Below, piece after piece: positions 931 to 19,055 of a DNA stretch of 64,000 nt. The DNA lies in the NCBI GenBank assembly GCA_903932145.1, contig CAIZFE010000080.1, positions 1 through 64,000 on the forward strand, in the 5' to 3' direction. This DNA comes from an uncultured Rhodopila sp. (GTDB lineage: Bacteria; Pseudomonadota; Alphaproteobacteria; Acetobacterales; Acetobacteraceae). Position 1 is the stretch's first letter, and each line of letters opens with the position of its first letter. The position numbers and the translations under genes were made by a program. Below the pieces are notes generated by a model that was not told the origin of the DNA, did not search any database, and saw only the letters and a program-made list of their open reading frames with translations.

Positions 931-1037
931 GATCGTAATCCTAACAGCGCGATCGTTTAAGGGTGTCTTTGCCCCAAACGGTGATCACGCGATCAAACAA
1001 ACAGTGCGGGCCATGATCGTTGGTCGATCATGCTCAC

Positions 1038-3041: not shown

Positions 3042-3045
3042 CGGC

Positions 3046-3945
3046 TCAGACCTTCTTGATCGCGGTCTTGCCGAACAGCCCGGCGGGTTTGAACGAGAGC
3101 ACCAGCAACAGCAAGATCAGGCCGGGCACGTCCTTGTAGCCGGTATCGAAATAGAAGCCGGTCAGGCTCTCGGTGATCCCCAGGATCAGTCCGCCGACCA
3201 CAACGCCGAGCCCGCTCGATAGGCCGCCGATGATGGCGACCGCGAATGCCTTCAGGCCGAGTGCGGCACCCATATTGGCGCCGGTCAGCGTGATCGGGGC
3301 GATCAGCACACCGGCAAGGGCCGCGCTGAGCGATGACAGAGCGTAAGAGAACGTGATCACCTGCGAGGTATTGATGCCCATCAGCCCCGCCGCGTCCCGG
3401 TCGTTGGCAGTGGCGACCACGGCCTTGCCGTAGATCGAGCGCCGGTTGAACAGTTCGACCCCCAGCATCATCGCCAGGGCGCCGAGGACGATGATGATCT
3501 CCATCAGGCGGACCTTGACGCCCCAGAAGTTGAGCGGAACCTCACTGACCGGCGAGGGGAATTTCAGCGGATCCTTTCCCCAGATGTGTTCGGCCATGTT
3601 CTTAAAGATGATGCCCAACGCGATGGTGGCCATGATCCAACCGGCTTCCGACTTGGTGCGGATCGCCTGGCGGACACCGAGCCATTCCACGACCGTGCCC
3701 TGCATCATGCCGAAGACGAACACGATCGGCAGCGCCAGCAGATAGGCCCACAAATTGCCGAACGAAAACCCGATCAGCACACTGACCGCGGTCAGGCCGA
3801 CCAGCGCGCCCAGGGTCAACGCCTCGCCCTGACCGAAATTCAGGGTTTTGGAGGTCGAGAACGTCAATTGATAGCCAAACGCGATGACGCCGTAGATCAT
3901 GCCGACCGAGATGCCGGACACCAATATCTGCAAGAAGTTTTGCAC
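3046..3945 (-). CDS. livH: LivH-type ABC transporter permease
   Basis: Inner-membrane permease subunit of the same HAAT importer, 299 residues, very hydrophobic with about eight membrane segments. The N-terminal segment carries the LivH signature around the TLNFGQGE motif, and a GGLSSGLGVVVGG motif lies in the C-terminal half. The start is GTG at 3945, preceded by an AGGGAAA ribosome-binding site. It follows livK after 261 bp, a gap that holds a short direct repeat, and is followed by livMG after 4 bp. It pairs with the LivM half of the fusion to form the translocation pore. Confidence 0.93.
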   Translation of the reverse strand: MQNFLQILVSGISVGMIYGVIAFGYQLTFSTSKTLNFGQGEALTLGALVGLTAVSVLIGFSFGNLWAYLLALPIVFVFGMMQGTVVEWLGVRQAIRTKSEAGWIMATIALGIIFKNMAEHIWGKDPLKFPSPVSEVPLNFWGVKVRLMEIIIVLGALAMMLGVELFNRRSIYGKAVVATANDRDAAGLMGINTSQVITFSYALSSLSAALAGVLIAPITLTGANMGAALGLKAFAVAIIGGLSSGLGVVVGGLILGITESLTGFYFDTGYKDVPGLILLLLVLSFKPAGLFGKTAIKKV

Positions 3946-4020
3946 GTAAATTTCCCTGAATCAGTCCAAGTGCCGCGATCGGCGGGACGTCCACGCGCCC
4001 TGCCGAGGTGCCTTACTGCG

Positions 4021-4052
4021 TTTGACCGGGCGCCGAATTTGACCGGGCGCCG
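4021..4052. repeat. 15-bp direct repeat between livK and livH
   Basis: TTTGACCGGGCGCCG occurs twice, at 4021-4035 and 4038-4052, separated by two bases, in the livK-livH gap. Such gaps after binding-protein genes often carry structures that lower expression of the permease genes. I see no long hairpin here. Confidence 0.6.
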
Positions 4053-4206
4053 GCCAAAAAGCCAGCACCAAAACGATCCGGGACCGACCTGTATCCGTTA
4101 CAGGCGGGTTATGTCGCTGCATCCCGGATCGGCGTCGCCGCAAAGTGCGGTTACCGTCCGGAATGCACGCGGTTGGACTTCGACCGATCGCGTCGTCCGT
4201 TTCGGT

Positions 4207-5412
4207 TTACGCCTTCGGCTTCAGGCGCAGCGCGTCGGCGCCCTCGACGTCGGCGGGGTTGGCGGGCACCACGCGTCCGCCCTTGACCGTGCCCAGCACG
4301 GGAATGTTGGAGGTGATCGCCTCATGATCGGTGGCGGTGAAGGGATGGTCATAATTGGTGACCACGCCGTCGATCTTGTTGTTCAGGTTTTCCAGCGCCG
4401 CGCGGATCTTCGTGCCGTCGGTGGAATTGGCCTGCTCGATCGCCGCGGTCAGCAGCAAAATCGAGTCGTAACCCTGCGCGGCCGAAACCGGTGAGGGGAT
4501 ACGGTCCACCTTATAAGCAGCCTGATACGCCTCGATGAAGGACTTGCGCTTCGGCGTGGACGGCACCTGGATGAAGGTCTGCGGCATCAGAACGCCTTCG
4601 CTGTTGGCGCCGGCGGCGTCGATGAAGCTGGCCATCGACAGCGTCCACGAGCCCATCACCGGCACTTTCCAGCCCAGCTTGACGACGGCGTTGACGGTCT
4701 GCGCCAGTTCCGGGCCGATCGCGTAGGTCAGCACGACATCGGCGCCGGCGTCCTTGGCACGCAGCGCCTGCGCGGTCATGTCGGTGTCGCCGATATTGAA
4801 TTTCTCAACCGCAACCGTCTTCAAACCGCGCTCGGTCAGTGCCTTTTCCAGGTCAGCCCGGCCCAACTGGCCATAGTTGGTGCTGTCGGCGATGATGGCG
4901 GGCTTGGTGTACCCGGCCTTCTTGACCGCTTCGGCGACCATGGCGGACTGAATGCTGTCATTCGCCGAGGTGCGGAAAATATAATTGAACTTGTATTCCG
5001 GCGGCAGAAATTGGCGCGTGACGATCGTGCCGGTCGCGACGTTATTGATGACCGGAATTTCCGCTTCCTCGTAGAAGCGCTGGGCAGCCAGCGCCACGCC
5101 GGTGTTGATGAAGCCGACCGTGGCGATCACTTGCTCTTTGTTGATCAGTTCCTGGGCGATCTGCACGCCGAGTTCGTTCTTGCCCTCGTCGTCGCGTTCA
5201 ACGAATTGGACCTGACGTCCCAGCACGCCGCCGGCCTTGTTGACTTCGGCCAAGGCCAACTTGGCGCCATCGCGCATGCTGACGCCCATGGAAGCCGACC
5301 CGCCGGTCATCGGGCCGGACAGGCCGATTTTGATCGGCCCGGACTGCGCCATGGCAGCGGTGGACAGCAGAGCGGCCATGGCCGCGCCGGCCAATCGTGA
5401 TTTTAGCATCAT
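4207..5412 (-). CDS. livK: LivK-type periplasmic binding protein
   Basis: Substrate-binding component of the HAAT importer, periplasmic, about 401 residues from the chosen start. The N-terminus (MMLKSRLAGAAMAALLSTAA, ending at AMAQ) is a clear Sec signal peptide, followed by a type I periplasmic binding fold with the typical KIGLSGPMTGG opening. I place the start at ATG 5412 (a second ATG follows at once), preceded by GGGG. An upstream in-frame ATG at 5466 would put 18 unsuitable residues before the signal peptide. As first gene of the operon it should be the most expressed. The ligand could be leucine-type amino acids, amides or aromatic compounds; sequence alone does not settle it. Confidence 0.92.
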   Translation of the reverse strand: MMLKSRLAGAAMAALLSTAAMAQSGPIKIGLSGPMTGGSASMGVSMRDGAKLALAEVNKAGGVLGRQVQFVERDDEGKNELGVQIAQELINKEQVIATVGFINTGVALAAQRFYEEAEIPVINNVATGTIVTRQFLPPEYKFNYIFRTSANDSIQSAMVAEAVKKAGYTKPAIIADSTNYGQLGRADLEKALTERGLKTVAVEKFNIGDTDMTAQALRAKDAGADVVLTYAIGPELAQTVNAVVKLGWKVPVMGSWTLSMASFIDAAGANSEGVLMPQTFIQVPSTPKRKSFIEAYQAAYKVDRIPSPVSAAQGYDSILLLTAAIEQANSTDGTKIRAALENLNNKIDGVVTNYDHPFTATDHEAITSNIPVLGTVKGGRVVPANPADVEGADALRLKPKA

Positions 5413-5542
5413 GAACGATATTCCCCAGAGTAGGCGTATTTGTAACGTTGCAAAAAGATGTGCCAAATTTGCCAGGACAACAGGGGCAGGCTTCTTGCGT
5501 GCTTGCTCCCCGGCATCATTCTAAAATGACATATGTTGCAAC

Positions 5543-5570
5543 GACATAGCTTAAATATCCAGGGTGTCAA
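5543..5570 (-). promoter_or_regulatory. candidate livK promoter
   Basis: On the minus strand a perfect TTGACA (5565-5570) is followed after 16 bp by TATGTC (5543-5548), about 130 bp upstream of the livK start in an AT-richer patch. The -35 box is good and the -10 box weak. No operator is recognised. Confidence 0.35.
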
Positions 5571-6052
5571 CAACAATTTTGAATTGTAAACATGATGAAA
5601 GTCGGATTGGTGTCCGGACCCGGACGGTCCGCAAGGCAATTCTCGAGAACCTTCGTTGGAACGGGAAATGACGGAGCCGTCCAGTGTCGGGTCAACGTGT
5701 CCGCCCAATTGCGCGTCAGGCATCCTGGTGGGCCGGGCCAGTCGCGGGGAAAGCGGCGCTGATCGTGGACGCGCATTATGATCGGGTGGCCTTGGTCACT
5801 GCCACTTTTCCTGACGACGTCGGTGGCGTGAGGGGAGGCATGCACGATTGTCCCGGCGGTGAGCCTTGCCGGAAAGGCGACCGCGCAAAATCGACATTTC
5901 GGTTAATCGGTCGCCGCTCATTTCCCCGGCCAGCGCATAAATCCCATGCCGTCCGGCCCGATTATCATCTTCAACGCCTGCTTCTATCTTCCACCCATCA
6001 AAGCCGAGCAGGATTGCCCGGCATCGGAAAGACGCTGGCGACGGAGGATATC
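5571..6052. other. intergenic, no supported gene
   Basis: Open frames cross this stretch on both strands (for example 5684 onward, plus), but none has a ribosome-binding site, a plausible protein composition or a recognised domain. The divergent promoters of livK and of the small gene at 6053 are expected here. Confidence 0.5.
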
Positions 6053-6214
6053 ATGGCACACGCACTGTTAGGACGCCTCTTCACGGTGAAGACCCTGATC
6101 CGTGTCGCTTCGACCGCCCTGAGTCTGAACTCCATCGCAATCGCGCATTCCCAGCCGGCGTATCAAGCGCCAGCACATAACTACTACCAGAACAATTGGA
6201 TGTCCGGCCGCTGA
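6053..6214 (+). CDS. small exported peptide of unknown function
   Basis: A 53-residue product too short for most gene callers. A strong GGAGG lies 6 bases before ATG 6053, which favours this start over the longer open frame that begins at 5684. Residues about 8-33 form a hydrophobic stretch with small residues ending near AHSQ, which reads as a signal peptide or N-terminal anchor. The mature tail is rich in Tyr, Asn and His (AHNYYQNNWMSGR). I recall similar short proteins with this kind of tail among Acetobacteraceae annotations but know no function. It stands alone between livK and the first copy of the leaderless gene family. Confidence 0.55.
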   Translation: MAHALLGRLFTVKTLIRVASTALSLNSIAIAHSQPAYQAPAHNYYQNNWMSGR

Positions 6215-6326
6215 GGTAGATTCGCTTCTGCGCCGCTGGCAGCAGAGTTTGGGGGCGAGAGGCGCAGCGGCGTGGCGCTACTTCGCGTGAATGGCAGCGG
6301 GCTGAATCTTGGCATACACGCCAGAC

Positions 6327-6355
6327 TTGACATATACTAACGTTAATGTTATCAA
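6327..6355 (+). promoter_or_regulatory. promoter with palindromic operator, copy 1
   Basis: TTGACA at 6327-6332, a 17-bp spacer, and TATCAA at 6350-6355. The spacer holds the imperfect palindrome AACGTTAATGTT (6339-6350). Only 7 bp separate the -10 box from ATG 6363, so transcription would begin at or next to the start codon. The same layout, base for base in spacing, is present at 10652-10688. Confidence 0.6.
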
Positions 6356-6362
6356 AACAGGC

Positions 6363-7157
6363 ATGAAGCATACGGCGCTAACCACATCCCGGCCTGCCCC
6401 GCCCGATCCCGCACAGGACCGGGCCGGTCTCACCGTGGTCACTTTGCCGCAACGCCTCGCCGCCCTGCTGCATGTCGTCCGTGTGCTGCTCGGGCACGGC
6501 CGCCGCCTCGCCGAGACCGTTCCGGACCGCGCCTCCAACGTTGAATTCGCCCCCCCCCTGGCCGCGGTTTGCGGTACCTACAACCTGCCGTCCATTCTCG
6601 CCCGCGTGCAGCGTGGCATCCTGCGTGCCATGGCTTTAGAGCGTTATTTGCTCGCCCGCGCCGAAAAGGGCCGCGAGATCGCCTTCGTGGAATGGCGCGA
6701 GCGTGCGCCGGCCAGGTCACCGGCCTAACCGCCAGAGGGGGCGGAAGAGGAGGCGCAAGAGGCGCCCGCTCCCAAGCGCCGGCCGTGCGATCCGGACGAT
6801 CTTCGCATTCCCACACTCGGAGAACTCGACGCTGAAGTGCGCCGCCGTCCACTCGGCCGCACCATCGCCACGATCTGCATGGACCTCGCCGTCGTTCCCG
6901 GGTTCTGCACCGGCCCATTTTGGAACCAGGTGTTCGAGACGCTACAGGGTTACGGCGGCAGTTTCACTTCGCTGTGTAAGATGCGGGCACATCGCGTGGT
7001 ATCTTTTCAGAAAGAGCGGGACCAGCATCCGGAGTCCTGGGACTGTGCCTGGGAGTTCCCGGGACCAAAGACGGTTCGCCGCATCCTCGGGTGCCTGATC
7101 GGCGAGGCGCCGATCAGGCACCCGCCTGGCCCGAGGCTGGCCACCGCTCCACCCTGA
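6363..7157 (+). pseudogene. unknown family, copy 1, one in-frame stop
   Basis: A full-length paralogue of the 275-residue gene at 10688, aligning from end to end in a single frame. The only break is TAA at 6726-6728, where the intact copy has GAA, so one base change explains it. The N-terminal part keeps the helical core (LLHVVRVLLGHGRRL, ILRAMALERYLL). The C-terminal part keeps CMDLAV, FCTGPFWNQ and VSFQKERD motifs. The stop falls in the charged, poorly conserved linker between the two parts, so two separate peptides could in principle be made. No ribosome-binding site is evident before a GTG at 6837. Function unknown. Confidence 0.7.
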
Positions 7158-7414
7158 TTTCGTCCTCGGACATGCGTTGCACCCTCAGCTTTTGGGCGCG
7201 CTTTCGCGCGCGTATCGGCCCGATCTCGTTCCGGGCGACCCCGGGGCAAGCGGGTGAATGTTCACCACCGAGTCAGCGTTGCCGCCCGGCAAGGGTCACG
7301 GTTAGAGGCCGTTGGTATAAGTCGACCCGGCTTAAACCATTGTCGGCGGCCCATTATGGGTCATATCACTCGTCATCCAAGGCGTAATCTTGTAAGGGTG
7401 AGCCTGCTTGAGTA
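7158..7414 (+). other. 3' flank of copy 1, includes shared hairpin
   Basis: The similarity between the two family copies continues past the stop codon to about 7259 (versus 11583). It includes a GC hairpin GCGCGC-TTTC-GCGCGC at 7196-7211, whose counterpart at 11524-11535 has four paired bases in each arm. No T-run follows, so termination is uncertain. The rest holds nothing recognisable. Confidence 0.5.
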
Positions 7415-8611
7415 TTGACCGCTCTCAATCCCCCTTGCAGGTACCATTTGCCGCCCGGACCCGCACCGATCCGCCGCTATTTGGCTCTCAGGCCAGGCGC
7501 CGCACCCGAAATCGCGCGCTTAGCGGCGAATGCGGTCATCAGTTGCTTAATGTCGCAACAAAGGATTTTAGCCGAACACTACAAGATGGATTATGATCAG
7601 CTTGCGGTCTATCTGGTGATAGCCAATGGCGCGGTGCAGAGATCTATCCGCAAACCAGAGCCCGGATCACACTTGGAAACGTTTGAACCGTTGGAATATG
7701 AGGATCTCGGAGTTGTTTCACGGCGGGCCGTCGCTGAAGCAACAGGTCTGCCGCGCGAAACCGTTCGTCGCATGTTTGACAAAATGACCGCTAATGGACG
7801 ATTGGTTACAGTTACAGATAACAAATCTGGCGAAAAGCTTTTAACTACCGAGTACTTTCCCCTGGAATCGCGACCGACGCGAAAATACACCAACGCCACC
7901 GTGCGAATGGCCAATCAGTTATCGAGGCTGGGAATCGTGACGGTGCAAGATCGTGCTACGGCTATTGTCGTTAGCAAAATCGAAGCTGACGTTTCTCAGG
8001 CTTTTGATCCTGGCCGATCAGGCTCCGCGGCCTTGGACAGCCCCTTCGTCCATGCCGCCGGTCAATCGGCCCGCAGCACACTGGTAGAGGGGAATGCACT
8101 CGATGCGATGATCCTGGCAGAAGAGAACTTCACCTCAAAAGCACGGCTCGTGTCATATGCAACAATCAATGACATCTTAGAACAATTGCGTCTTTTGGCG
8201 GACCACTCGGGTATGAGCTATAATGAGCTTGTCGTTTATATTTGGATTTCATTGGCAACCGTTCAGGAGACAAGCCAGATCGAGGCAGCGGATCAACTGC
8301 CAACGCCGGATTCGCCGATCCCATTCCCCGGCACCGGATCGATCTCGCGACGTGCGGTCGCCGCCGCAACAGGCCTCCCCAGGGAAACCGCGCGTCGTAT
8401 AATCACCGGTCTGCTCGCCAAGGGTCACGTCACCCCGGTTGGGCGTAACTTCGTTGCGTCGCCTTTTCTCACTGAACTGCCCGCGCAAAGCCAGATTATG
8501 AGCTGCTTGGAAAAGGCGGTTCAAATAATCAACACGCTGCTGCGGCTGGACGTCATGGTGTTTAGCGATAGGACAGCGCGTCGCCACCCGTGGCCTGGAG
8601 ATAGTGCTTGA
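7415..8611 (+). CDS. tandem helix-turn-helix protein, unknown
   Basis: The protein is built from two copies of one unit, about residues 35-180 and 230-385. Each unit opens with a helix and a MxYxxLxVY motif (MDYDQLAVY, MSYNELVVY). After a variable loop comes a winged-helix-like element: VSRRAVAEATGLPRETVRR in the first and ISRRAVAAATGLPRETARR in the second. Each ends with a helical segment. This suggests a DNA-binding regulator that carries both half-site readers on one chain. The start is unsure: TTG 7415 gives 398 residues, while ATG 7550 would cut into the first unit. Base composition is visibly more AT-rich than its neighbours, suggesting acquisition. No ligand domain is seen. Confidence 0.7.
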   Translation: MTALNPPCRYHLPPGPAPIRRYLALRPGAAPEIARLAANAVISCLMSQQRILAEHYKMDYDQLAVYLVIANGAVQRSIRKPEPGSHLETFEPLEYEDLGVVSRRAVAEATGLPRETVRRMFDKMTANGRLVTVTDNKSGEKLLTTEYFPLESRPTRKYTNATVRMANQLSRLGIVTVQDRATAIVVSKIEADVSQAFDPGRSGSAALDSPFVHAAGQSARSTLVEGNALDAMILAEENFTSKARLVSYATINDILEQLRLLADHSGMSYNELVVYIWISLATVQETSQIEAADQLPTPDSPIPFPGTGSISRRAVAAATGLPRETARRIITGLLAKGHVTPVGRNFVASPFLTELPAQSQIMSCLEKAVQIINTLLRLDVMVFSDRTARRHPWPGDSA

Positions 8612-8667
8612 TGGTCTTTCCCTGAACCCGGAACTGACCTCCACGATAGGATACGAACGGTGCTGAT

Positions 8668-10311
8668 TTAGCCTACAGTATTACCCATGTCGTCCAGGAG
8701 GCCGCTTGTCAACGCTCGGACAAGCTCGTCGTCATCAACCACGAGTATCTTAGGGTGGCCGTACACCGATGGATCTGGCACGGCGTCATCTGCGTCGTCC
8801 GGTTCCGCAGCATCGTTCCTCGGCAGAAAGATGTCGATAGCCGTGCCCTCGCCCGGCGCGGTACAAATAGCAAGCCCGCCGTTCGACTGGCTGGCAAAGC
8901 TGTGCACCATTGCGAGGCCCAAGCCGGTTCCCTTGCCGACGCCCTTGGTCGTGAAGAACGGTTCCAATGCGCGCGCCACCACATCGGGCGGCATGCCGGT
9001 CCCGGTATCGGCAACCGAGATCACCACGCAGTCCCCTGACGGGCATGCTTCGTCGCGCGGCGCGTCCGCGGGCAGGTTATGAGCCGAAATAGCCAACGTT
9101 CCGCCCCGCGGCATGGCGTCGCGCGCATTTGTCGCCAGATTCAATAGCGCCACCTCCAGGCGATTTTTGTCGGCCACGACAGGCCACAGGTCCGGCGCCT
9201 CTTTAACGATTAGATTGACCTGCGAGCCGACGCAGTGCCTGACGAGTTGCTTCGTTTCCGCAAGAATGGAATTCAGGTCGATCCGCACCGGCTTTACTGC
9301 CTCGCGGCGGGCAAATGCCAGTAGGTGTTCGAATAGTCCTGTCGCCCGCGCGGCGGCCTTCTCGCCAGTATCGGCCCATCGTCGGATCTCACTGTCGGTC
9401 GTTTTTTTTGTGATATGGCGAAGGACATTGGTAAGGATGAACAGGATGTTGTTGCAATCGTGGACTATTCCACTGGTGAGTTGGCCTAGCGCCTCCATCT
9501 TCTGGGTTTGCGCCAACGTAGCCTGTACGAGTTCGCGCCTCTCCATCTCGGCGAGAAGTTCGCGTGCGGTCTCGGTCAGGGCGCAGGTGCGCTCCTGAAC
9601 TAACCGTTCCAGGCGTTCTTCGATTTCAACGGTCGCGGTTATATCCATTACGATATTATACAACCATCTGGTCCCCGGCCGGTGGCTGAACGCAGCGCCC
9701 CGAGCCTTTAGCCACCGCCAACTTCCATCCGGATGCTCCCAGCGAAACTCGATGGCAAAGTTGTTGGAGGCACCACTCCGGATGGAAAGAGCAGCATTCC
9801 AGTAAGCATCCTGGTCTTCCGGGTGAACGCGACGGGCGAATTCCGCTAATTCAGGGCCGTTCATCGAAACTGGGACCTCAGCGGGTAGCACGCCCCCAAC
9901 TATCTCGGATGTCCGTCGGTCTGCCTTGAGCGTCCACGCTTCGTAGTCGAATTCGTAGACGCCGATCCCAGCGGCATCCAATGGCAGACGGAAGCGGATT
10001 TCGCTTTCCTTAACGACCGTCTCGATGACCGAGCATGGTCGATCCTCGCACGGGGGCGGGGTCGCGGGCCGCGCAACGGCAGCGGCGTTTCGATCCAGTG
10101 GCCAGATCTTTTTAAGGCGGCTCAGGAACTGAACACCAACTGAAGAAAGTCGGCTGGCTTCATCTGATTCTTGCAGTAGGGGCGGCACGCGCGTCCTCGT
10201 TCCAGTACTCGTCGTGGGTGTATCAAGCCTGGTTGATTTGATAGCAGAGAGCTTCACAACCGCACTAACAACAAGCGACCCATGTTGGGTCGTTCGTCCT
10301 AATTGCCGCAC
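8668..10311 (-). CDS. PAS histidine kinase with truncated receiver
   Basis: Cytoplasmic sensor kinase of 547 residues. Order: poorly conserved N-terminus (1-100), PAS domain with PAC-type end (about 105-230), coiled coil, dimerisation helix with phospho-accepting His284 in GIVHDCNNIL, then an ATPase domain with N box (LLNLATNARD) and G boxes (DTGTGM, GKGTGLGL). At 521 a receiver domain begins (KILVVDDDELVRALTSGLL) but a stop arrives after only 27 residues, before the phospho-accepting Asp and Lys. The neighbouring kinase at 13058 shows what the full receiver looks like. The ATG lies 136 bp from the displaced comF end. The kinase may still act on other receivers. Confidence 0.85.
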   Translation of the reverse strand: MRQLGRTTQHGSLVVSAVVKLSAIKSTRLDTPTTSTGTRTRVPPLLQESDEASRLSSVGVQFLSRLKKIWPLDRNAAAVARPATPPPCEDRPCSVIETVVKESEIRFRLPLDAAGIGVYEFDYEAWTLKADRRTSEIVGGVLPAEVPVSMNGPELAEFARRVHPEDQDAYWNAALSIRSGASNNFAIEFRWEHPDGSWRWLKARGAAFSHRPGTRWLYNIVMDITATVEIEERLERLVQERTCALTETARELLAEMERRELVQATLAQTQKMEALGQLTSGIVHDCNNILFILTNVLRHITKKTTDSEIRRWADTGEKAAARATGLFEHLLAFARREAVKPVRIDLNSILAETKQLVRHCVGSQVNLIVKEAPDLWPVVADKNRLEVALLNLATNARDAMPRGGTLAISAHNLPADAPRDEACPSGDCVVISVADTGTGMPPDVVARALEPFFTTKGVGKGTGLGLAMVHSFASQSNGGLAICTAPGEGTAIDIFLPRNDAAEPDDADDAVPDPSVYGHPKILVVDDDELVRALTSGLLDDMGNTVG

Positions 10312-10446
10312 GGCAGGAAGGAGCCGCGCTTGCGCACTGGGGCAGCGCCCGTCCGCAAAGTCCTGGCCGGGAGAATCCTCGCGACGCCCCCTAAGAACCT
10401 CTATTCAGAAGATCGGACAGAATACACGTGGCGAGCATCCACCAGT

Positions 10447-10556
10447 CTACCTTAGCCTAGGATCCGGAACCCGCGCCGCCACCAGGACATCCACCGCCGC
10501 TGCCCCTGCCTCCAGCAATACGGACGCGCACGCGCCTGCTGTCGCCCCGGACGTCA
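10447..10556 (-). pseudogene. displaced 3' end of comF
   Basis: On the minus strand this codes for the last 35 codons of ComF, starting inside the PRPP loop (TSGATA) and ending with the same PDPRLR and TAG stop as the intact gene. Most differences from the intact end are synonymous; the only two residue changes are Ser to Gly and Ala to Ser. It therefore comes from a comF that had been under selection, not from a decaying local copy. Upstream of 10556 the homology stops abruptly. Confidence 0.8.
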
Positions 10557-10651
10557 CTCACAGTTGGCCCAGACAGGTCGAGCCAGAACGATGGGGCAAT
10601 GGTGTCCACTTGGCACGGTGATTTTGGGCGCGGTCCATGGACACGCCGGGG

Positions 10652-10680
10652 TTGACATAATTTAACGATAATGTTAGTAA
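10652..10680 (+). promoter_or_regulatory. promoter with palindromic operator, copy 2
   Basis: TTGACA at 10652-10657, 17-bp spacer and TAGTAA at 10675-10680, with the palindrome-like AACGATAATGTT (10664-10675) in the spacer. ATG 10688 follows after 7 bp, as in copy 1. No ribosome-binding site fits between, pointing to a leaderless messenger. Confidence 0.6.
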
Positions 10681-10687
10681 ATGCGCC

Positions 10688-11515
10688 ATGGAGCCTATGA
10701 CGCCAACCATGACCCGGCCGGCCCCGCCCGATCCCGCACTGGACCGGCCCGGCCGCACCATACCAGAACGAATCGCCGCCCTGCTGCATGTCGTCCGTGT
10801 CCTGCTCGGTCACGGTCGCCGCCTCGTTGAAACCGTCCCCGAACGCGTCGCCGACGTTGAATTCGCCGCTCTGGCCGCCGTCTGCGGCACCTACATGCTG
10901 CCGGCCATCCTCGCCCGCCTGCAACGCGGCATTCTGCGGGCGATGGCGTTGGAGCGTTACCTGCTATCCCGCGCCGCAAAAGGCCGCGAGATTGCATACG
11001 TGTACGCGCGCGAGCGCAAGCCGGCCAAGCCCCGCGCGGAACCGTCAGAGGGAACGCAGGCCGGGTCAAAAGAGGAGGCGCGGGACGCGCCCGGACCCAA
11101 GCGCCGGCCGTTCGATCCGGACGATCTCCGTATCCCCACCCTTGAGGAACTCGACGCCGAGGTCCGTCGCCGTCCGATCGGCCGCACCATCCTCTCGATC
11201 TGCATGGACCTCGCCGTCATCCCCAGTTTCTGCACCGGCCCATTCTGGAATCAGATATCCGACACGCTCCAGTCCTACGGCGGCAGCTTCACGACACTGT
11301 TTAAGATACGGCAACACCGCGAGATATCGTTTCAGAAAGAGCGGGACAAGAAACCGGACTCCTGGAGCTTTGACTGGAAGTTCCCGCCACCTGAGACGGT
11401 TCGCCAAGTGCTTGGGTACATGATCGGCGACTCACCCATTTGGGACCCGTTCGATCCGTTACTGGCCACCGCTCCTCCCCGAGTCCCATCGCCGGACATG
11501 CGTGCCACCCTCTGA
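10688..11515 (+). CDS. unknown family, intact copy 2
   Basis: 275 residues, no domain that I recognise. A Pro-rich start is followed by an all-helical N-terminal part (about 25-115) with LLHVVRVLLGHGRRL and ILRAMALERYLL. A charged linker (about 116-145) leads to the Pro/Asp motif FDPDDLRIPTLEELDAE. The C-terminal part (about 160-260) has conserved CMDLAV, FCTGPFWNQI, ISFQKERDKKPDSW and ATAPP. No signal peptide and no clear membrane span. The promoter and ATG spacing indicate leaderless expression, probably with a repressor acting in the promoter spacer. A second copy with one stop lies at 6363, and similarity extends into the flanks, so the unit of duplication was about 0.95 kb. Confidence 0.75.
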   Translation: MEPMTPTMTRPAPPDPALDRPGRTIPERIAALLHVVRVLLGHGRRLVETVPERVADVEFAALAAVCGTYMLPAILARLQRGILRAMALERYLLSRAAKGREIAYVYARERKPAKPRAEPSEGTQAGSKEEARDAPGPKRRPFDPDDLRIPTLEELDAEVRRRPIGRTILSICMDLAVIPSFCTGPFWNQISDTLQSYGGSFTTLFKIRQHREISFQKERDKKPDSWSFDWKFPPPETVRQVLGYMIGDSPIWDPFDPLLATAPPRVPSPDMRATL

Positions 11516-11777
11516 TTCCGGGGGCGCTTTCGCGCGCGCACCGGGCCGATCTCGTTCCGCACGGTCCCGGGGACAATCCGGTGAATAGCGTTTCGCGATG
11601 CACCGGGCCGAGGATCTTATCAGCCCGAAGTGTCAGCACCGCTCGGGCGTCCGGTGCTTGATGTTCGAGCAAGCTCCGAAGGGAAACCCCGGCTTAATGG
11701 CTGGTTCGTGCAATCCTGGCGATCCGATAGGCTGGCAGCGCGTGAGCACGAGTCCGAACCAACCAGGATACGATTTG

Positions 11778-11891
11778 ATGCGCGAGACGACGCTGGAGCC
11801 GTCAGAGTTGCTGAACAGGGTCGTGGATTACGTCCACGCTCGCCGCGTCGTGCTGTTTGGCTCGCGGGCGCGTGGCGAGGTCGAACCATAG
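11778..11891 (+). pseudogene. MntA-type nucleotidyltransferase fragment
   Basis: A 37-codon open frame from ATG 11778 ends with VVLFGSRARGEVEP and a TAG. The GSRARGE motif is the start of the active site in minimal nucleotidyltransferases (MntA antitoxin type), which normally continue with the catalytic Asp pair and run to about 100-140 residues. All that follows is missing, and no HEPN toxin partner is recognisable downstream to 12053. I read it as the remnant of a HepT/MntA toxin-antitoxin pair. Confidence 0.6.
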
Positions 11892-12053
11892 GCCGCGGAT
11901 GCCTGCTTTGCGTCCAGGACGTAAGAAGCCGCGGTCGCGCATGGCGACGCAGAGACAAATGCCAAAATTCGGGAAACTGAGCTAAGCTTGCCAATATCGC
12001 ACTCGGCAGCCGCCATCGTCGAAAGTGACACGGAACCATAATCAGGATCTGGA
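11892..12053. other. remnant DNA before heme oxygenase gene
   Basis: No complete gene. Short frames on both strands carry no recognisable domain. It must contain the promoter and leader of the heme oxygenase gene; no clear boxes are visible. Confidence 0.4.
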
Positions 12054-12668
12054 ATGACACTTCCAATGGAAGCTATCGCACGTCGGGCGTTGCAACAGGC
12101 AACGAAGCCGGCGCACGAACGTCTGCATTCGAATGTCGCGTTTGCGGCACTTCTTCGGGGGGATCTGGAACTGCCGGCTTACCGGCGCCTTTTGGTTTGC
12201 CTGCTCGGACTCCATGAGCCGATCGAGCAAAGCCTGGGACGATTGCGCGCTGACCCGCTGCTCGCCTGGCGCTGTGCGGGCGCTCATATGTCAAGGGCAG
12301 GCCTGCTTTGCACCGACCTCGCCGTGCTGGGATTTGGCCCGCTTGAGATTGAGGCCGCTCCCCGCGCGCATGCGCTGCTCCCGCCACTTCTCGACACCGC
12401 GTCGGCGCTTGGCTGTGCGTGGGTCGTCGAAGGCTCGGCGCTAGGCGGCCGGGTGATGTCGGCGAAGGTCGATGCAATGCTTAGCCAGACGCACGAAACG
12501 GGCGGGGGTGCGTTCTTCTCCTCCGACCCCGACCAGCCCGCACGCTGGCGCGGTTGCTGTGAAGCTGTCGAGGCATGCAGCGCGCAGCCGGATGGCCTTT
12601 CGGCTATGACCCGCGCCGCCATGACCACTTTCGCCGCGTTTGAAACATGGCTCGGCGCATCAAACTGA
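12054..12668 (+). CDS. biliverdin-producing heme oxygenase
   Basis: Cytoplasmic enzyme that opens heme to biliverdin, iron and CO; biliverdin is the chromophore of bacteriophytochromes. The 204 residues fit the BphO/HmuO family: His21 in KPAHERLH is the likely proximal heme ligand, and the distal-helix motif CAWVVEGSALGGRVM (about 121-135) carries the flexible Gly pair GSALGG. It is encoded 2 kb upstream of the bacteriophytochrome on the same strand, with the hybrid kinase between, so its role is most likely chromophore supply rather than iron scavenging. Start at ATG 12054; a second in-frame ATG lies at 12066. Confidence 0.88.
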   Translation: MTLPMEAIARRALQQATKPAHERLHSNVAFAALLRGDLELPAYRRLLVCLLGLHEPIEQSLGRLRADPLLAWRCAGAHMSRAGLLCTDLAVLGFGPLEIEAAPRAHALLPPLLDTASALGCAWVVEGSALGGRVMSAKVDAMLSQTHETGGGAFFSSDPDQPARWRGCCEAVEACSAQPDGLSAMTRAAMTTFAAFETWLGASN

Positions 12669-13057
12669 CCGGGCACCGTTGACGACCAAAGGGACGAGGC
12701 TTGTCGCTTGTCGTTGCGGACAAAAATCCATGCGGAAAATCGCGGTGACTGTGGGCGCCGGTCTGCGATCACGTATTCGGCATCAACCGATGATAGCCCC
12801 ATGTCTCGTCAACAACGGTGGTAAACGAATCGTGCCGCTCCATATATTGTAACAATGTGAATACCCGGGAATTCGCGGTGCGAAGAACAGCGTCCAGAGC
12901 ACTATCACGCTGCGTCTTCGGCACGGCGGGCTGCAATTTGTGAAATCTAATTTTCCTAACTGAAGCGAGACGGTCCGGAGTGCGGCGGGCGCATCACGGA
13001 ATCTGCGTTCCATAATGCGGCTCTCAGTCGGTCTGACCGTGAAAGAAGCTATACTCT
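12669..13057. other. intergenic, no gene seen
   Basis: 389 bp between the heme oxygenase and kinase genes. The right part is AT-richer (near 12940-12965) and may hold a promoter for the kinase-phytochrome pair, but no boxes are clear and no open frame looks coding. Confidence 0.45.
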
Positions 13058-14698
13058 ATGCCTTTCGAGGATCGCCTCGGCCGCACCAGGCTAGATGCAG
13101 ACCATGCGACTTTGCGTGTCATCATGGATTTCACCCTCGACCGCGTTGTGGTGTTAGACGAGGAGGGACACTTTCTTTTCGTCAACCGAAGCGCCTGCCG
13201 CCATCTCGGCGTGAAGGACCCGGATTCTCTGCTCGGCACCGCTTGGCACGAACTTTGGGATACTGATGCGGCTGTCGTCGTCCGGGCGGCGATCGCCCAA
13301 GCGGCAATGGGCGAGAGCGCACGGTTCATCGGGATGATGAACAACTTTGAGGGCTTCCCCGTGTGGTGGGACGTATCAGTCAGTCCCATTCCCGGGATTG
13401 ATGGCCACGGGCGGCGCATCCTTGCCGTCGCACGCGACGTGACCGTGGGCCGTACAGCCGAGGAGAAACTTCGCCTCGCCAACATTTGCCTGGAAGCGAT
13501 CGTTACCGAGAACAAGCAGGCTATGAGCGCTGCAACCAGGGAACTGGCGGTGCACGAGCGAAAGAATAAGGAAATGAGCGAGGCGCTGCTCCAGGCGCAA
13601 AAATTGGAGGCCCTCGGCGAACTCACAGGCAGTGTGGCGCATGACTTCAACAATCTTCTCACCGCTATCCGAGGCAGTTTTGACCTGCTCGTTCGACGCG
13701 TTCACGACGAAGCTGGTCAACGTCTGCTCCGCAACGGCACCGTGGCTTCGCAGCGCGCTGCAGGCCTTGTGCAGAAACTTCTGGCGTTCGCACGACGTGA
13801 GCAAATGGAGCCCGTCCTGGTTGATCTGGCGGACGTGCTGACGAATGCCGGTGATTTGCTCCGACAAGGGGTGGGAAGCAAAGTCAGGTTGGAGGTCAAA
13901 CCCATCCCCGCAGGGCTCTGGAAATTTTGGGCCGAACCGAACGAGATCGAGATCGCGCTGCTGAACCTGGCCGTCAACGCGCGTGACGCGATGCCCGAAG
14001 GCGGCACACTGACGATTTCAGCCTTCAATGCGCCTGGCGGTGCGAAGAACAGGCCGGTTTGGCTGCCGCCGCAGGATTACATCTTGCTGGCGTTGCAGGA
14101 TACCGGAGTGGGAATGTCACCGGAGGTGCTGGCGCGGGCGACCGAGGCGTTCTTCACCACCAAGGAAGCTGGCAAGGGAACCGGCCTCGGATTGCCGATG
14201 GTCGATCGTTTGGCCGAGAAGGCTGGCGGCAAACTCCATATCGAAAGCGTCTTGGGCAGCGGCACGACGATGACCCTTGTGCTCAAGCGCGCCGACGAGC
14301 AGCACGCTGCCATCGCTAAGGAAGACGCTACGATCGATGCCGCCCGACACGGCGATGCAACGCTGTTGATCGTGGACGATGATGAGCAGGTGCGGACGGT
14401 TACAGCAACGTTCTTGCGCGATCTACGTTACCACGTCATCGAGGCAACAAATGGGAGTTCCGGGTTGCTTCTCGCACGGGCGTCTGGCTCGGTTAATCTG
14501 GTCGTGACGGACGCGACCATGCCGGGCTGCGACGGTCCGACGCTAGCTGCTCGTCTGCGAGCAGAGTGGCCCGCACTGCCAATCATTTTTTTAACAGGAT
14601 TTGCTGGGAACCCCTTACTCGCGAATGAAACGGTCATGATGAAACCCTATGCTTTTCCCGAACTGGCGGATCTCGTCGCCGAACGGCTTGGCCGATGA
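13058..14698 (+). CDS. hybrid histidine kinase, PAS-HK-receiver
   Basis: 546-residue cytoplasmic signalling protein. Order: PAS domain (about 15-130), coiled coil (about 135-185), dimerisation helix with phospho-accepting His195 in GSVAHDFNNLL, ATPase domain with N box LLNLAVNARD (301-310) and G boxes DTGVGM (348-353) and GKGTGLGL (372-379), and a C-terminal receiver (about 434-546) with acidic triad DDD (440-442), phospho-accepting Asp485 in VVTDATMPG and Lys529. All catalytic residues are present. Its stop overlaps the bacteriophytochrome start by 4 bp (ATGA), so the two are translationally coupled. It is the obvious candidate to supply the kinase that the phytochrome lacks. No DNA-binding output is present. 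Confidence 0.92.
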   Translation: MPFEDRLGRTRLDADHATLRVIMDFTLDRVVVLDEEGHFLFVNRSACRHLGVKDPDSLLGTAWHELWDTDAAVVVRAAIAQAAMGESARFIGMMNNFEGFPVWWDVSVSPIPGIDGHGRRILAVARDVTVGRTAEEKLRLANICLEAIVTENKQAMSAATRELAVHERKNKEMSEALLQAQKLEALGELTGSVAHDFNNLLTAIRGSFDLLVRRVHDEAGQRLLRNGTVASQRAAGLVQKLLAFARREQMEPVLVDLADVLTNAGDLLRQGVGSKVRLEVKPIPAGLWKFWAEPNEIEIALLNLAVNARDAMPEGGTLTISAFNAPGGAKNRPVWLPPQDYILLALQDTGVGMSPEVLARATEAFFTTKEAGKGTGLGLPMVDRLAEKAGGKLHIESVLGSGTTMTLVLKRADEQHAAIAKEDATIDAARHGDATLLIVDDDEQVRTVTATFLRDLRYHVIEATNGSSGLLLARASGSVNLVVTDATMPGCDGPTLAARLRAEWPALPIIFLTGFAGNPLLANETVMMKPYAFPELADLVAERLGR

Positions 14699-16347
14699 CA
14701 GACACGCCACCGCCCGTGTTCGGCGAGGCAACGCTGTCCAATTGTGACAGTGAGATTATTCATACCCCCGGTGCGATCCAGGCGCATGGCATCCTGCTGG
14801 TGTTGTCCGAACCGGACCTCGTCATCCGGCAGGCCAGTGACAACATGCGCCGTCACCTCGGTCTCGGCACCGCACACATGCTAGGAAAGGAACTTTCCCT
14901 GCTGGTGGATGCGCACGCAATGGATGCCGTCCGATCGGCAATGACGGAAGATCTGGTTGAGCCCGCATACTTGCCGCCACTGACGACCACCGTCGGGCTA
15001 CGCATGGAAGCTCTGATCCATCGCACTGAAGTCGGGCTGATTCTGGAACTTGAGCCATTGGAAGCTGCGCCCATCTTTAACCTGCCATTGGCATTTCGCA
15101 AGATGCTGCACGCCGTCCATGCCGCGCCATCGGTGGTTGCCGCGTGCGCCGAGGCAGCACGGCAGCTTCGCGAGATCACAGGTTTCGACCGCGTCATGGT
15201 CTATCGCTTTCTTGAGGATGACACGGGCACGGTGATTGCCGAGGATCGGCGGAAAGACCTTCCGCCTTTCCTCGGGATGCACTACCCGGCAAGCGACATT
15301 CCGGCCCCGGCCAGAAAGCTGTTCATACTGAAGCCGCTGCGTGTCCTGGTCGGCATCGATAACGCGAATGCTGCCCTGGTGCCGGTTCTGAACCCCACCA
15401 CGGCCGCGCCGCTGGACATGAGCCTCTGCGTATTGCGTGCGCCGTCACCAATCCACGTAGAATATCTTCGCAACATGGGGGTTTCCGCGTCCATGTCGTT
15501 GTCCATACTGCGGGATGGACGTCTATGGGGCATGATCGCGTGCCACCATGATTCCGATCGCCGGGTTTCCCATGCGCACCGCGTGGCCTGTGAGGCTCTG
15601 GGCGACCTGTTGACCGTGCAGATCGAGGCGAAAGAGCTCCAGGACAATTTAGCTGAAACTGTCCGCCTCCATGCCTGGAGCGTTCAGGCATTGTCCCACC
15701 TGGGCCTCGGCGGCGCCTTATTCGATACACTTAAAGGCATGGGCTCCTGGCTTATGCATTTTGTGCCGACGATCGGCGTTGCGGTGCATGTTGACGGTCA
15801 TACTGCAACATTTGGCCAGGTACCTGATGAAGCGACGCTTAAAATACTGATCGATTTCCTCCAAACCAGGACGGTGGAAGGCGTTCTCGCGACACACAAA
15901 CTCGATGGCTACCTGGAGAGCGCGCCGTCGCCGATTTGCGGGCTGCTGGCGGTGCCGGTTTCGCGGGAACCTGGCGATGTGCTGATGTGGTTCCGGCCGG
16001 AAATTGAGCAAACCTTCGTCTGGGCGGGGGACCCGTCGAAGCCAGTTAGCATCGGCCCTTCTGGCGCTCGGCTGACGCCGCGTGGCTCATTCGAGGCTTG
16101 GATTGAGACTGTTCGCGGGCAGTCCGAGCCGTGGAGCGTTACGGAGATGGAAGCGGCACGCGCGTTCGGATTAGCGCTCGTAAAACGTCCTCGTTCGAAT
16201 ACCTCAACCGCCCCGCAGCCGTTGGCAACGGACGCGGTTGAGCAGCGCATCACGGACGCCATTATTCTGTCGCAAGATGCTGGTGAAGCATTGCGCCAGG
16301 TGATCAAGACATTCGACTTGCTGTCCGAACGCCTCGGAGGCCAGTAG
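14695..16347 (+). CDS. bacteriophytochrome core without kinase
   Basis: Red/far-red photoreceptor, 550 residues, PAS-GAF-PHY only. Cys17 (SNCDSEIIHTPGAIQAHG) is the position that binds biliverdin in bacterial phytochromes. The GAF domain has YPASDIP with Asp201, His254 in SPIHVEYL and the ACHHD motif. The PHY domain has the tongue motifs FRPE (433-436) and PRGSF (462-466), so photoconversion chemistry looks intact. After the PHY domain only about 70 residues of helical, Ser/Thr/Pro-linked tail remain: no histidine kinase, GGDEF or other output. Canonical family members continue into a kinase of 200 or more residues. The 4-bp overlap with the upstream hybrid kinase suggests signalling in trans. 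Confidence 0.93.
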   Translation: MTDTPPPVFGEATLSNCDSEIIHTPGAIQAHGILLVLSEPDLVIRQASDNMRRHLGLGTAHMLGKELSLLVDAHAMDAVRSAMTEDLVEPAYLPPLTTTVGLRMEALIHRTEVGLILELEPLEAAPIFNLPLAFRKMLHAVHAAPSVVAACAEAARQLREITGFDRVMVYRFLEDDTGTVIAEDRRKDLPPFLGMHYPASDIPAPARKLFILKPLRVLVGIDNANAALVPVLNPTTAAPLDMSLCVLRAPSPIHVEYLRNMGVSASMSLSILRDGRLWGMIACHHDSDRRVSHAHRVACEALGDLLTVQIEAKELQDNLAETVRLHAWSVQALSHLGLGGALFDTLKGMGSWLMHFVPTIGVAVHVDGHTATFGQVPDEATLKILIDFLQTRTVEGVLATHKLDGYLESAPSPICGLLAVPVSREPGDVLMWFRPEIEQTFVWAGDPSKPVSIGPSGARLTPRGSFEAWIETVRGQSEPWSVTEMEAARAFGLALVKRPRSNTSTAPQPLATDAVEQRITDAIILSQDAGEALRQVIKTFDLLSERLGGQ

Positions 16348-16711
16348 CCAATCGACCCGCTCGCGAACGTGAGCACGGCCGCGCCTGACAATACCTTCCG
16401 GTAAATCCAGAACTCTTGGGTCATCGGTATTCGCAGGCCAAAAGCCGCACAATGGCTATCCGTAAGCTGCGTGCGGTGCGACCGGACCATTTTGCTAAAA
16501 ATTTGAATTTCCGTAGATGAAATCTATAGGTTTTTGTGTTGTATATTTTGGTTTTTGGACCCGTTTCGCGGCTTCGGCAACCGTGCGAGAGGAAACGGCG
16601 GCTCATTAGACACCGGATGGTGGTTGTATGTCCCTCTATCAAACGGCCAAGGAAACTACGATGTCTCACATTTGGTTTTACCCGCCGCCGGAGCCCGGCA
16701 AGGATGATTCT
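16348..16711. other. intergenic between convergent genes
   Basis: 364 bp between bphP-like and comF 3' ends. An AT-rich patch lies near 16500-16555. A short frame from ATG 16661 runs antisense into comF and is not convincing. No T-tailed hairpin was found. Confidence 0.45.
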
Positions 16712-17515
16712 CTACCGCAGCCGAGGATCCGGAACCCGCGCCGCCACCAGCACGTCCACCGCCGCTGCCCCCGCCTCCAGCAACACGGCCGCGCAAGCGC
16801 TCGCCGTCGCCCCGGACGTCATTACATCATCGATCAACAGCACCGTCCGGCCAACAATCCCGCCCGCCCGCGTCGCCCGCACCCGAAACGAGCCGGCAAC
16901 CTCTCGCGTCCGTTCTTCCGGTGATTTCTCGTCCAGCGGAGCGGTTCGGCGTGTCCGCTCCAGCGCATCCGGCAGCACGGTGCGTCCGACCAGCCCGCCA
17001 ACCGCGAACGCCAGCAACGCCGCCTGATTGTATTTGCGGTGAAACAACCGCCGCCGGTGCAATGGCACCGGGATCAGCACGTCCGCGCCCTGTAGCAATG
17101 TCGCCCCTGCCCGCACCATCATCGGCGCCAGGATCGAGGCCAACTCGACCCGGTCGCCATGCTTCAGCGGCAGGATCAGCCGCCGCCCCTGCTGGTCGTA
17201 GCGCAACGCCGCCCTGGCCTGACGGAACACCGGCGGCCGGTCCCGGCACCCCGGACACAGCGCCGCCGCCCCACCTTGCTCAACCGACGCGAACGGCACG
17301 CCGCAGCGCGAACAGAACGGCGCACTGATAAAATTCGTGCCGCCGAAGCACGAAGCGCATAACTGCCCCTGCACCGCGACCGGATTGTCGCAGGCGGCGC
17401 ACCGGGGCGGCAGCAGCAGATCCAGCACCAGCCGCCCAAACCGAGCAAAATCAGGCGGCAGCGTGGGTTTCCCCGGGGATGCCGAATACGACCGTGCCGT
17501 CACGCTCAATCTCAT
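16712..17515 (-). CDS. comF: ComF family phosphoribosyltransferase-like protein
   Basis: ComFC-type protein linked to DNA uptake during natural transformation; cytoplasmic. Four Cys pairs at the N-terminus (CAAC, CASC, CSRC, CPGC) form the expected zinc-binding region, and the C-terminal domain has the PRPP-loop motif LLIDDVMTSGAT. The start is uncertain: ATG 17515 gives 267 residues and overlaps the end of the rhodanese gene by about 65 bp, while a GTG nearer the first Cys pair would give a length closer to the family's usual 230-240. A second copy of its last 110 bp lies at 10447-10556, marking this gene's 3' end as a likely integration site. Confidence 0.88.
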   Translation of the reverse strand: MRLSVTARSYSASPGKPTLPPDFARFGRLVLDLLLPPRCAACDNPVAVQGQLCASCFGGTNFISAPFCSRCGVPFASVEQGGAAALCPGCRDRPPVFRQARAALRYDQQGRRLILPLKHGDRVELASILAPMMVRAGATLLQGADVLIPVPLHRRRLFHRKYNQAALLAFAVGGLVGRTVLPDALERTRRTAPLDEKSPEERTREVAGSFRVRATRAGGIVGRTVLLIDDVMTSGATASACAAVLLEAGAAAVDVLVAARVPDPRLR

Positions 17516-19055
17516 GCACCAGATCGATTTCCCAGGACAGGTAGGCGCGCATCGCGGCCTCGACGCCCGAATTCCGGTCATACGCCCGCAGATAGAAGTC
17601 GATGCAGGCGTCATCCGGCGGGGTCGTCCGGTCCTTGACCAGCGGCCGGCCGAACGCGTGCCATGCGTCGGTGCCGCCATCGAGCACATGCACCGTTGCC
17701 TTGGTCAGCCCCTGCACCTCCGGCACCGCCAAACGCGCCAGCATTCCATCCGGCGAGGTGATAACGACATGCCCGGCGGCGGCAAGCGGCGCCTGCAAAC
17801 CGCCCAGCCTGCTGCGGACACCCCAAATCGCGCCCGGAATATGGCCGTCGCGGTAATCGATACTGCGCCCCAGATCGAGCACCAGCGTATGCGCCGCACT
17901 GTCCAGCAACTGCACCAGCCGAGGCACGTCGATCAGGTTCACCGGCGCCGCCAATTCGGGCACCGGCACAGCGGCGGTGCCGGTTTCGCGCACCGCCTCC
18001 AACCCGCCCTCGACCACGAACACATCGCGATGGCCCATCTGCCGCAGCCATGCGGCGGCCATCCTGGCTCGGACGCCGGTGTCATCGACCAGGACGATTC
18101 GGGCATTGCGCACGCCGACCCAGGTGTCGGTCCCCTGCACAAGCTGGCCGCCGGGGGCGTTGCGGCTGCCGGGGCGATGGCCGGCGCGGAATTCCACCGG
18201 ATCGCGCACATCCAGCACATACAGGGTGCGGTCGGGGTCATCCTCGAACCGCGTCAGGTCCAACGGCCCGATCACGCCGACGCCGGATTCGTCGGCGAAG
18301 GCCCGGGCACGTTGCAGCGCCAGGGCGGCGGTTTTGGGCGTGCCGGGCTGGAATTTCTCGGTGCGGCCGCGGTCGCATTTCAGGCCGGCGAGTTCCCAGC
18401 CCATGGTGCCGTTGCGCAGCGCCACGACCTTGTTGGGGATGCCGGCGCGGCGCAGGCTTTCGGCGCCCATGATGCTGCGGGTGCGGCCGGCGCAGTTGAC
18501 GACCACCAGAGTGTTCGGATCGGGCACCATATCGCCGATGCGATAGGCCAGCTCGCCGCCTGGCACGCTGATCCCGGTGGGGATCGACATGCGGGTGAAT
18601 TCCTCCAGCGTGCGGCTATCCAGCACGACCATGTCGCGGCCCGAGTCGATCCAGGCTTTCAGGTCGGGGGCATCCACGCTTTCGGTGCCGTAGTGGTGCT
18701 CCACCCACTCGCCAAACGCTTTTGACGGGACGTTGACGCCGCTGAACAGCACGTATCCCGCCGCTTCCCAGGCCTTGGTGCCGCCATCCAGGACCGACAC
18801 ATCGGTGCAGCCGATGGTTTCCAGCCACGCCGCCAACGTCTCGGCCAGACCGGTTCCGTCATCGATACAGCACACTCGCGTGGCCACCCGGGGCAGTAAT
18901 GCGCGTGCTCGGATTTCCTTCCGAGCCAGGCCGCATGGGATCGCCCAAAAAAGGTGAGAGGCGCCGAATTCGCCTTCCTCGCGAGCGTCGAGCAGAGCGA
19001 GTTCCTGGCCGTCGGTGATCCAGGCGCGCAGGGTGGCGGGGCTGATACGTTTCAT
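17451..19055 (-). CDS. protein with four rhodanese domains
   Basis: 534 residues with four rhodanese-like domains in tandem (about 5-105, 125-235, 260-365, 380-480) and a C-terminal extension. Only the first (VCCIDDG, Cys62/63) and second (VVNCAGRTRS, Cys188) have a Cys at the active-site loop. The third (VLVDDTGVR) and fourth (VITSPDG) lack it and are probably structural or regulatory. Rhodanese domains move sulfur as a persulfide. The start ATG 19055 is preceded by GGAGG; an upstream ATG at 19169 is less likely. It overlaps comF at its 3' end, so the two are probably cotranscribed. Sulfur donor and acceptor are unknown. Confidence 0.85.
   Translation of the reverse strand: MKRISPATLRAWITDGQELALLDAREEGEFGASHLFWAIPCGLARKEIRARALLPRVATRVCCIDDGTGLAETLAAWLETIGCTDVSVLDGGTKAWEAAGYVLFSGVNVPSKAFGEWVEHHYGTESVDAPDLKAWIDSGRDMVVLDSRTLEEFTRMSIPTGISVPGGELAYRIGDMVPDPNTLVVVNCAGRTRSIMGAESLRRAGIPNKVVALRNGTMGWELAGLKCDRGRTEKFQPGTPKTAALALQRARAFADESGVGVIGPLDLTRFEDDPDRTLYVLDVRDPVEFRAGHRPGSRNAPGGQLVQGTDTWVGVRNARIVLVDDTGVRARMAAAWLRQMGHRDVFVVEGGLEAVRETGTAAVPVPELAAPVNLIDVPRLVQLLDSAAHTLVLDLGRSIDYRDGHIPGAIWGVRSRLGGLQAPLAAAGHVVITSPDGMLARLAVPEVQGLTKATVHVLDGGTDAWHAFGRPLVKDRTTPPDDACIDFYLRAYDRNSGVEAAMRAYLSWEIDLVHEIERDGTVVFGIPGETHAAA

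Follow-up and report, generated by a model that had tools for sequence, protein, structure and literature searches.

A second comF 3′ end beside light-sensing genes in a Rhodopila genome, possibly a decayed insertion scar

Results

Genes and features of the comF region

The window, that is, the whole stretch of DNA analysed, comprises bases 1–64000 of an 88.8-kb contig (C80) of an uncultured Rhodopila genome (6.66 Mb in 115 contigs). Between two blocks that are conserved in relatives, ABC transporter genes at 208–5466 and the comF-rhodanese-methyltransferase genes, lies a patchwork that holds a second comF 3′ end and a set of light-sensing genes. The features are as follows (evidence in brackets).

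5467–16711, no strand: variable patchwork of about 11 kb between the two conserved blocks
6310–7259, plus strand: copy A of a dispersed gene cassette, its ORF broken by a stop codon (genome search and alignment)
7415–8611, plus strand: crpA, with helix-turn-helix matches in two places (Pfam; GC3 0.574)
8668–10311, minus strand: HK1, a PAS histidine kinase (Pfam; GC3 0.651)
10447–10556, minus strand: duplicate of the comF 3′ end (110 bp, of which 98 bases are identical) with its stop codon retained (sequence comparison)
10560–10625, no strand: short intergenic repeat, with diverged copies at several other places in the genome and in the closest relative, G011
10641–11543, plus strand: cassette copy B, with an ORF of 275 aa at 10688–11515 (genome search and alignment)
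12054–12668, plus strand: heme oxygenase (Pfam)
13058–14698, plus strand: PAS-HisKA-HATPase-receiver hybrid kinase (Pfam)
14695–16347, plus strand: bacteriophytochrome photosensory module (PAS-GAF-PHY), kinase-less (Pfam)
16712–17457, minus strand: comF, double zinc ribbon plus phosphoribosyltransferase (ORF call and Pfam)

An earlier note on this DNA had placed a heme oxygenase, a hybrid kinase and a kinase-less phytochrome between the two comF ends, and all three are confirmed by Pfam. In the phytochrome, PAS_2, GAF and PHY were each found above the Pfam cut-off, and residues 11–492 aligned with the BphP of PDB 6bap (E 6e-101), including the positions of the Cys (NCD), PASDIP and PRxSF motifs. 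NCDSEIIH is aligned with NCDREPIH of that protein, so that the predicted biliverdin cysteine, an N-terminal residue which we take to be the point of attachment, is present. The match to the BphP equivalog NF041576 covers the first 500 of 622 positions and scores 290.7 bits against a cut-off of 1040, far below that of a full-length BphP because the kinase part is absent. The best other match in the genus is 44% identical, and 12 of 33 genus genomes (this one included) harbour a match at E 1e-60.

The first 4 bp of the phytochrome gene coincide with the last 4 of the hybrid kinase gene, and this translationally overlapping kinase is the likely output partner of the phytochrome. The heme oxygenase would make biliverdin, and the kinase-less phytochrome would sense red/far-red light. 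Among 80 named loci with phytochrome relatives, a heme oxygenase match lies directly upstream of the phytochrome relative in several, and the order heme oxygenase, hybrid kinase, phytochrome was seen in none. A short ORF at 11777–11891 resembles the beginning of a nucleotidyltransferase, with GSRARGE as what is presumably a nucleotidyltransferase motif; it has no Pfam match.

The comF repeat diverged mostly as coding sequence

The mechanical comF ORF spans 16712–17689, with the start inferred at about 17457 and the stop codon at 16712–16714 on the minus strand. About 6.2 kb downstream lies the second comF 3′ end in the same orientation, so that 10446–10556 and 16711–16821 form a gap-free direct repeat of 89% identity. 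Similarity stops 1 base beyond the stop codon at one side, and at the other just ahead of the codons for TSGAT, which we take to be the PRPP-loop motif. The copies differ at 12 of 110 bases (8 third and 4 first codon positions), their longest identical run is 27 bp, and the TAG stop is retained in both. Ten of the 12 mismatches are synonymous; the other two change Ser to Gly and Ala to Ser. The repeat thus stands as the earlier note had described it: 110 bp, gap-free, with about 12 mostly synonymous mismatches and the stop codon included.

A whole-genome search placed the repeat at two sites (E 1.6e-35) and at no third one; a genome-wide dispersed repeat, the outcome that the note itself had named as adverse, was therefore rejected. 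Chance similarity or an assembly artefact is extremely improbable: the genome does consist of 115 contigs, yet the E value is very low, 12 sites distinguish the copies, both are far from the ends of the 88.8-kb contig, and the genome is rated 100% complete and 0.13% contaminated.

When 12 changes were placed at random, at least 10 were synonymous in 0.010–0.015% of 20,000 draws, the simulation being repeated at each of three transition weights. Because 10 of the 12 observed changes are synonymous, the fragment diverged mostly as working comF sequence, and on the same ground simple duplication followed by neutral decay was rejected as the main account. The fragment matches its own genome's comF at 98 of 110 bases and that of G011, the best among 20 relatives, at 90 of 110 (G011 against own comF, 94 of 110). 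Being nearest to the own comF and then to G011, the fragment should therefore derive from a near sister lineage.

When G011 serves as outgroup, we assign 7 changes (5 synonymous) to the fragment branch and 3 to that of the own comF by our own reading, with 2 ambiguous; changes on both branches mean that both copies have changed. Taken alone, the 5 of 7 on the fragment branch are weak (about 0.04 by hand calculation). Both nonsynonymous changes occurred at sites where the 14 relatives compared (the 20 less the six most distant) are all alike, which indicates that the fragment has ceased to evolve as coding DNA. At one position the fragment carries the base of 11 of the 14 relatives and the own comF deviates.

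No hairpin beyond chance was found to the right of the fragment, and the junction at 16340–16720 has no additional copies. At 16661–16711, about 17 codons (MSHIWFYPPPEPGKDD...) that begin with a start codon, preceded by a plausible ribosome-binding site, run into the comF 3′ end; they may be the 5′ part of a truncated gene, and no other copy of this stretch was found in the sequences compared.

The comF 3′ end is the edge of conserved gene order

The search with whole comF covered 59 genomes and gave a match in 30 of the 32 other genomes of the genus (that in G023 being weak). Twenty same-genus comF loci were read, 17 of them with more than 6 kb downstream; the within-locus repeat search covered L042 and L043 in part only. 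Upstream of comF the order is conserved, with the rhodanese in 19 of 20 loci and methyltransferase matches in 17. Downstream, the genes vary among relatives, as followed with six marker genes:

Markers A/B: L034, L037, L039, L040 and L042; B also in L052
Markers C/D: L033, L035, L036, L041, L042 and L044
Marker X: L046–L049
None of the six: L038, L043, L045, L050 and L051, three of these with little sequence

As the upstream side is kept and the downstream side differs, the comF 3′ end is the edge of conserved order. None of the 20 loci harbours unkB, heme oxygenase, phytochrome, crpA or HK1 at E ≤ 1e-5 or the left flank of the fragment (10446 leftward), and the hybrid kinase gave one weak match at E ≤ 0.01. 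A relative that carried these genes next to comF and had no repeat would have spoken against the earlier proposal, and none is among the 20 loci. Nor was there what it had hoped to see in close relatives: neither an empty site nor other cargo with a duplicated end was found in these loci, and a search of 397 family genomes gave no second genome with two ends.

G011 has an inverted order, and a truncated gene is joined a few bases from the comF end; this junction is another rearrangement exactly at that end. The comF-downstream block of G011 corresponds to positions 8188–17403 of contig C54 in this genome, where the gene continues and no comF piece lies beside it.

Near 12415–12445 of the G011 locus (L033, G011:C8), comF has an altered last codon and stop and is fused to the truncated gene, which is longer in this genome (C54:7790–8310 region).

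The last 62 comF codons were matched in 368 of the 397 family genomes (E ≤ 1e-5), and among the matches listed for these, two comF 3′ ends occur only in this genome, in a search that would overlook fragments much shorter than this one. As the other 367 have no second end, comF is not a recurrent site. A seemingly doubled comF end in G041, from another family of the class, was rejected: the two contigs (L297 on C534 and L298 on C489) share a terminal overlap of 606 bp with 88% identity, stop codon and flank included, and therefore represent two strains or a mixed assembly and no scar. In G019, G003 and G034, comF is split across contigs or frames.

The fragment lies inside probably foreign DNA

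The transporter genes at 208–5466 are collinear in G001, G003, G026 and G004, where the match stops near 5350. Conserved neighbours have a GC3 of 0.73–0.83 (comF 0.734, rhodanese 0.803, transporter genes 0.81–0.82), and that of the heme oxygenase, hybrid kinase and phytochrome is 0.673, 0.682 and 0.679, respectively. The light-sensing genes between the comF ends were probably acquired. As crpA and HK1, to the left of the fragment, are equally low, the fragment sits inside foreign DNA and does not mark an island edge, contrary to the earlier note. HK1 stops about 29 residues into what reads as a receiver-like stretch, with no match to a receiver domain, and the short repeat at 10560–10625 begins 4–9 bp from the truncated end of the fragment.

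The locus could also be the scar of a rearrangement with no integrative element, in which a former additional comF, either a tandem copy or one transferred from a sister lineage, was deleted except for its last 110 bp and the space between the ends is a repeat-rich gap where breakpoints recur. Such a history is a possibility that we hold in second place and regard as rather doubtful. The differing comF 3′ flanks of relatives and the truncated gene at the comF end of G011 agree with it, as do the short dispersed repeat next to the truncated end, the truncated HK1 and broken cassette copy nearby, and the confinement of the repeat to 1 of 368 genomes. By itself, however, it does not explain why the surviving piece should be just the terminal 110 bp of the gene, up to its stop codon, and the genome holds no further remnant of a second comF.

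A dispersed gene cassette

The gene of unknown function that the earlier note had counted as cargo of a module proved to be a genome-wide dispersed repeat. It gave 65 matches in the genome, and the 62 matches listed fall in about 47 places, some of them at contig ends where they may be halves of one copy. It is present in 15 of 33 genus genomes; across the order, 7 of the 299 genomes searched have it, and these seven belong to this genus. The window copy has no match in Pfam, NCBIfam, PHROGs or PADLOC, none of 28 members of the family has a Pfam match at E ≤ 0.1, and no transposase was recognised. A profile search with the protein against PDB sequences gave a best E of 0.64, and its single-sequence structure model has a pLDDT of 43, too low to be informative.

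Of 38 copies read, among them copy B, 36 have an open frame of at least 240 codons counted from the aligned start; a contig end cuts one of the other two. Differences concentrate at third codon positions (6504 versus 2980 and 2488; 80 pairs). TTGACA lies upstream in 37 of the 38 and a TAAC...TTAG/A palindrome in 34; copy B has the TTGACA promoter and TAAC-N7-TTAG. Many copies have a common core, and most flanks become unrelated at about 55 bp on the upstream side and 60 bp on the downstream side, with subsets alike over up to a few hundred bases more. In a midpoint-rooted tree (FastTree, 50 sequences), 31 of 34 own-genome copies fall in one group, for which no support value was read, and the two of G011 fall outside.

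No report of a Rhodopila repeat, gene family or paralog of this kind was found in the literature covered; the family is undescribed and represents one lineage-specific burst. It may be a self-spreading cassette of about 0.9 kb with its own promoter, a possible repressor palindrome, the 275-residue gene and a downstream hairpin-like stretch. The fuller proposal, that the gene is a copy of such a cassette which burst to about 47 copies, two of which may have helped to build the comF patchwork, is tentative, and we consider it somewhat unlikely as a whole.

Integrases and possible vectors

Eight Phage_integrase (tyrosine type) matches were found in the genome at E ≤ 0.001, 7 of them above the cut-off. 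None is on contig C80, in line with the earlier remark that no integrase remains, and the Pfam matches of the scanned proteins include no integrase. The genus has 245 integrase matches at E ≤ 1e-8; among the matches listed, just one is on a contig with comF, 20.6 kb away from it (G008). In phage and plasmid records, the comF end has short partial matches at most, none covering 80%, and no viral contig encodes it. Reports of the comF 3′ end as an integration target were not found in the literature covered, which included few subscription journals.

Homologous (Campbell-type) integration of a circle carrying a comF 3′ fragment would produce the same structure with no site-specific enzyme, and recombination within mosaics of the 110 bp, with their 27-bp identical run, is permitted. 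However, 110 bp at 89% identity is a poor substrate for homologous recombination, and the phage, plasmid and viral records offer no carrier of the comF end. We consider such an integration unlikely.

Discussion

The best of several close readings, to which we give slightly less than an even chance, is that an old insertion into the 3′ end of comF has decayed to a scar. Incoming DNA would have brought with it a comF 3′ end from a sister lineage, one nearer to this genome than the nearest available species, and would have recombined with the corresponding end of the resident gene. This would most likely have happened in an integrase-type, gene-preserving way as with e14 at icd, leaving comF with its full reading frame and one end behind. 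The integrase and most of the element would have been lost afterwards, and other DNA (two cassettes, short repeats, kinase and regulator genes) may have come and gone to give the patchwork at 5467–16711. Against this reading stand the lack of an integrase match on the contig, of an empty site and of a second comF end in the other 367 matching family genomes, the weak synonymous excess on the fragment branch alone, the two changes at invariant sites, the position of the fragment inside low-GC3 DNA, and the G011 comF-downstream block, which lies on another contig here with no comF piece beside it.

The signature of an integrative element, as claimed in the earlier note, holds in part: the mostly synonymous divergence resembles that of e14 and icd and the composition is atypical, and neither integrase nor empty site was found. 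Its mobile photoreceptor module is not supported, as no integrase match is on the contig, only 1 of 368 genomes has two ends and no empty site was found. The repeat is a scar in one genome and gives no evidence for a travelling light-sensing module. It would be a further likely case of a protein-gene 3′ end serving as recombination target with the gene preserved; in this instance the bacteria are purple-bacterial relatives and the gene is linked to DNA uptake. More novel is a by-product, the repeated gene family. Proof of its mobility would give it greater weight, as a genus-specific, transposase-less route for one gene to fill a genome.

The light-sensing genes share with known BphP/BphO systems the PAS-GAF-PHY module, with the heme oxygenase here two genes upstream. 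They differ in that the phytochrome bears no kinase and the gene that overlaps its start encodes a separate PAS hybrid kinase.

The closest parallel for the repeat is e14 at icd of Escherichia coli K-12, where a duplicated 3′ end of 165 bp shows 12 nucleotide changes and 2 amino-acid changes (PMC11148124, PMC6379469). Here too the 3′ end of a protein gene is directly duplicated with its frame kept, over 110 bp, and the ends differ mainly synonymously, likewise by 12 changes and 2 amino acids. The e14 prophage carries phage genes and an integrase gene, and strains that lack it are known, whereas none of these, and no other cargo in relatives, was found here.

ComF (ComFC) is a different protein from ComFA. 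Mobile elements are known in competence genes, with prophages in comFA, comK and comYC and islands in comM (PMC4774983). The comF locus resembles these in that the target is a competence-related gene; those elements disrupt the gene internally and carry integrases, whereas here comF is intact.
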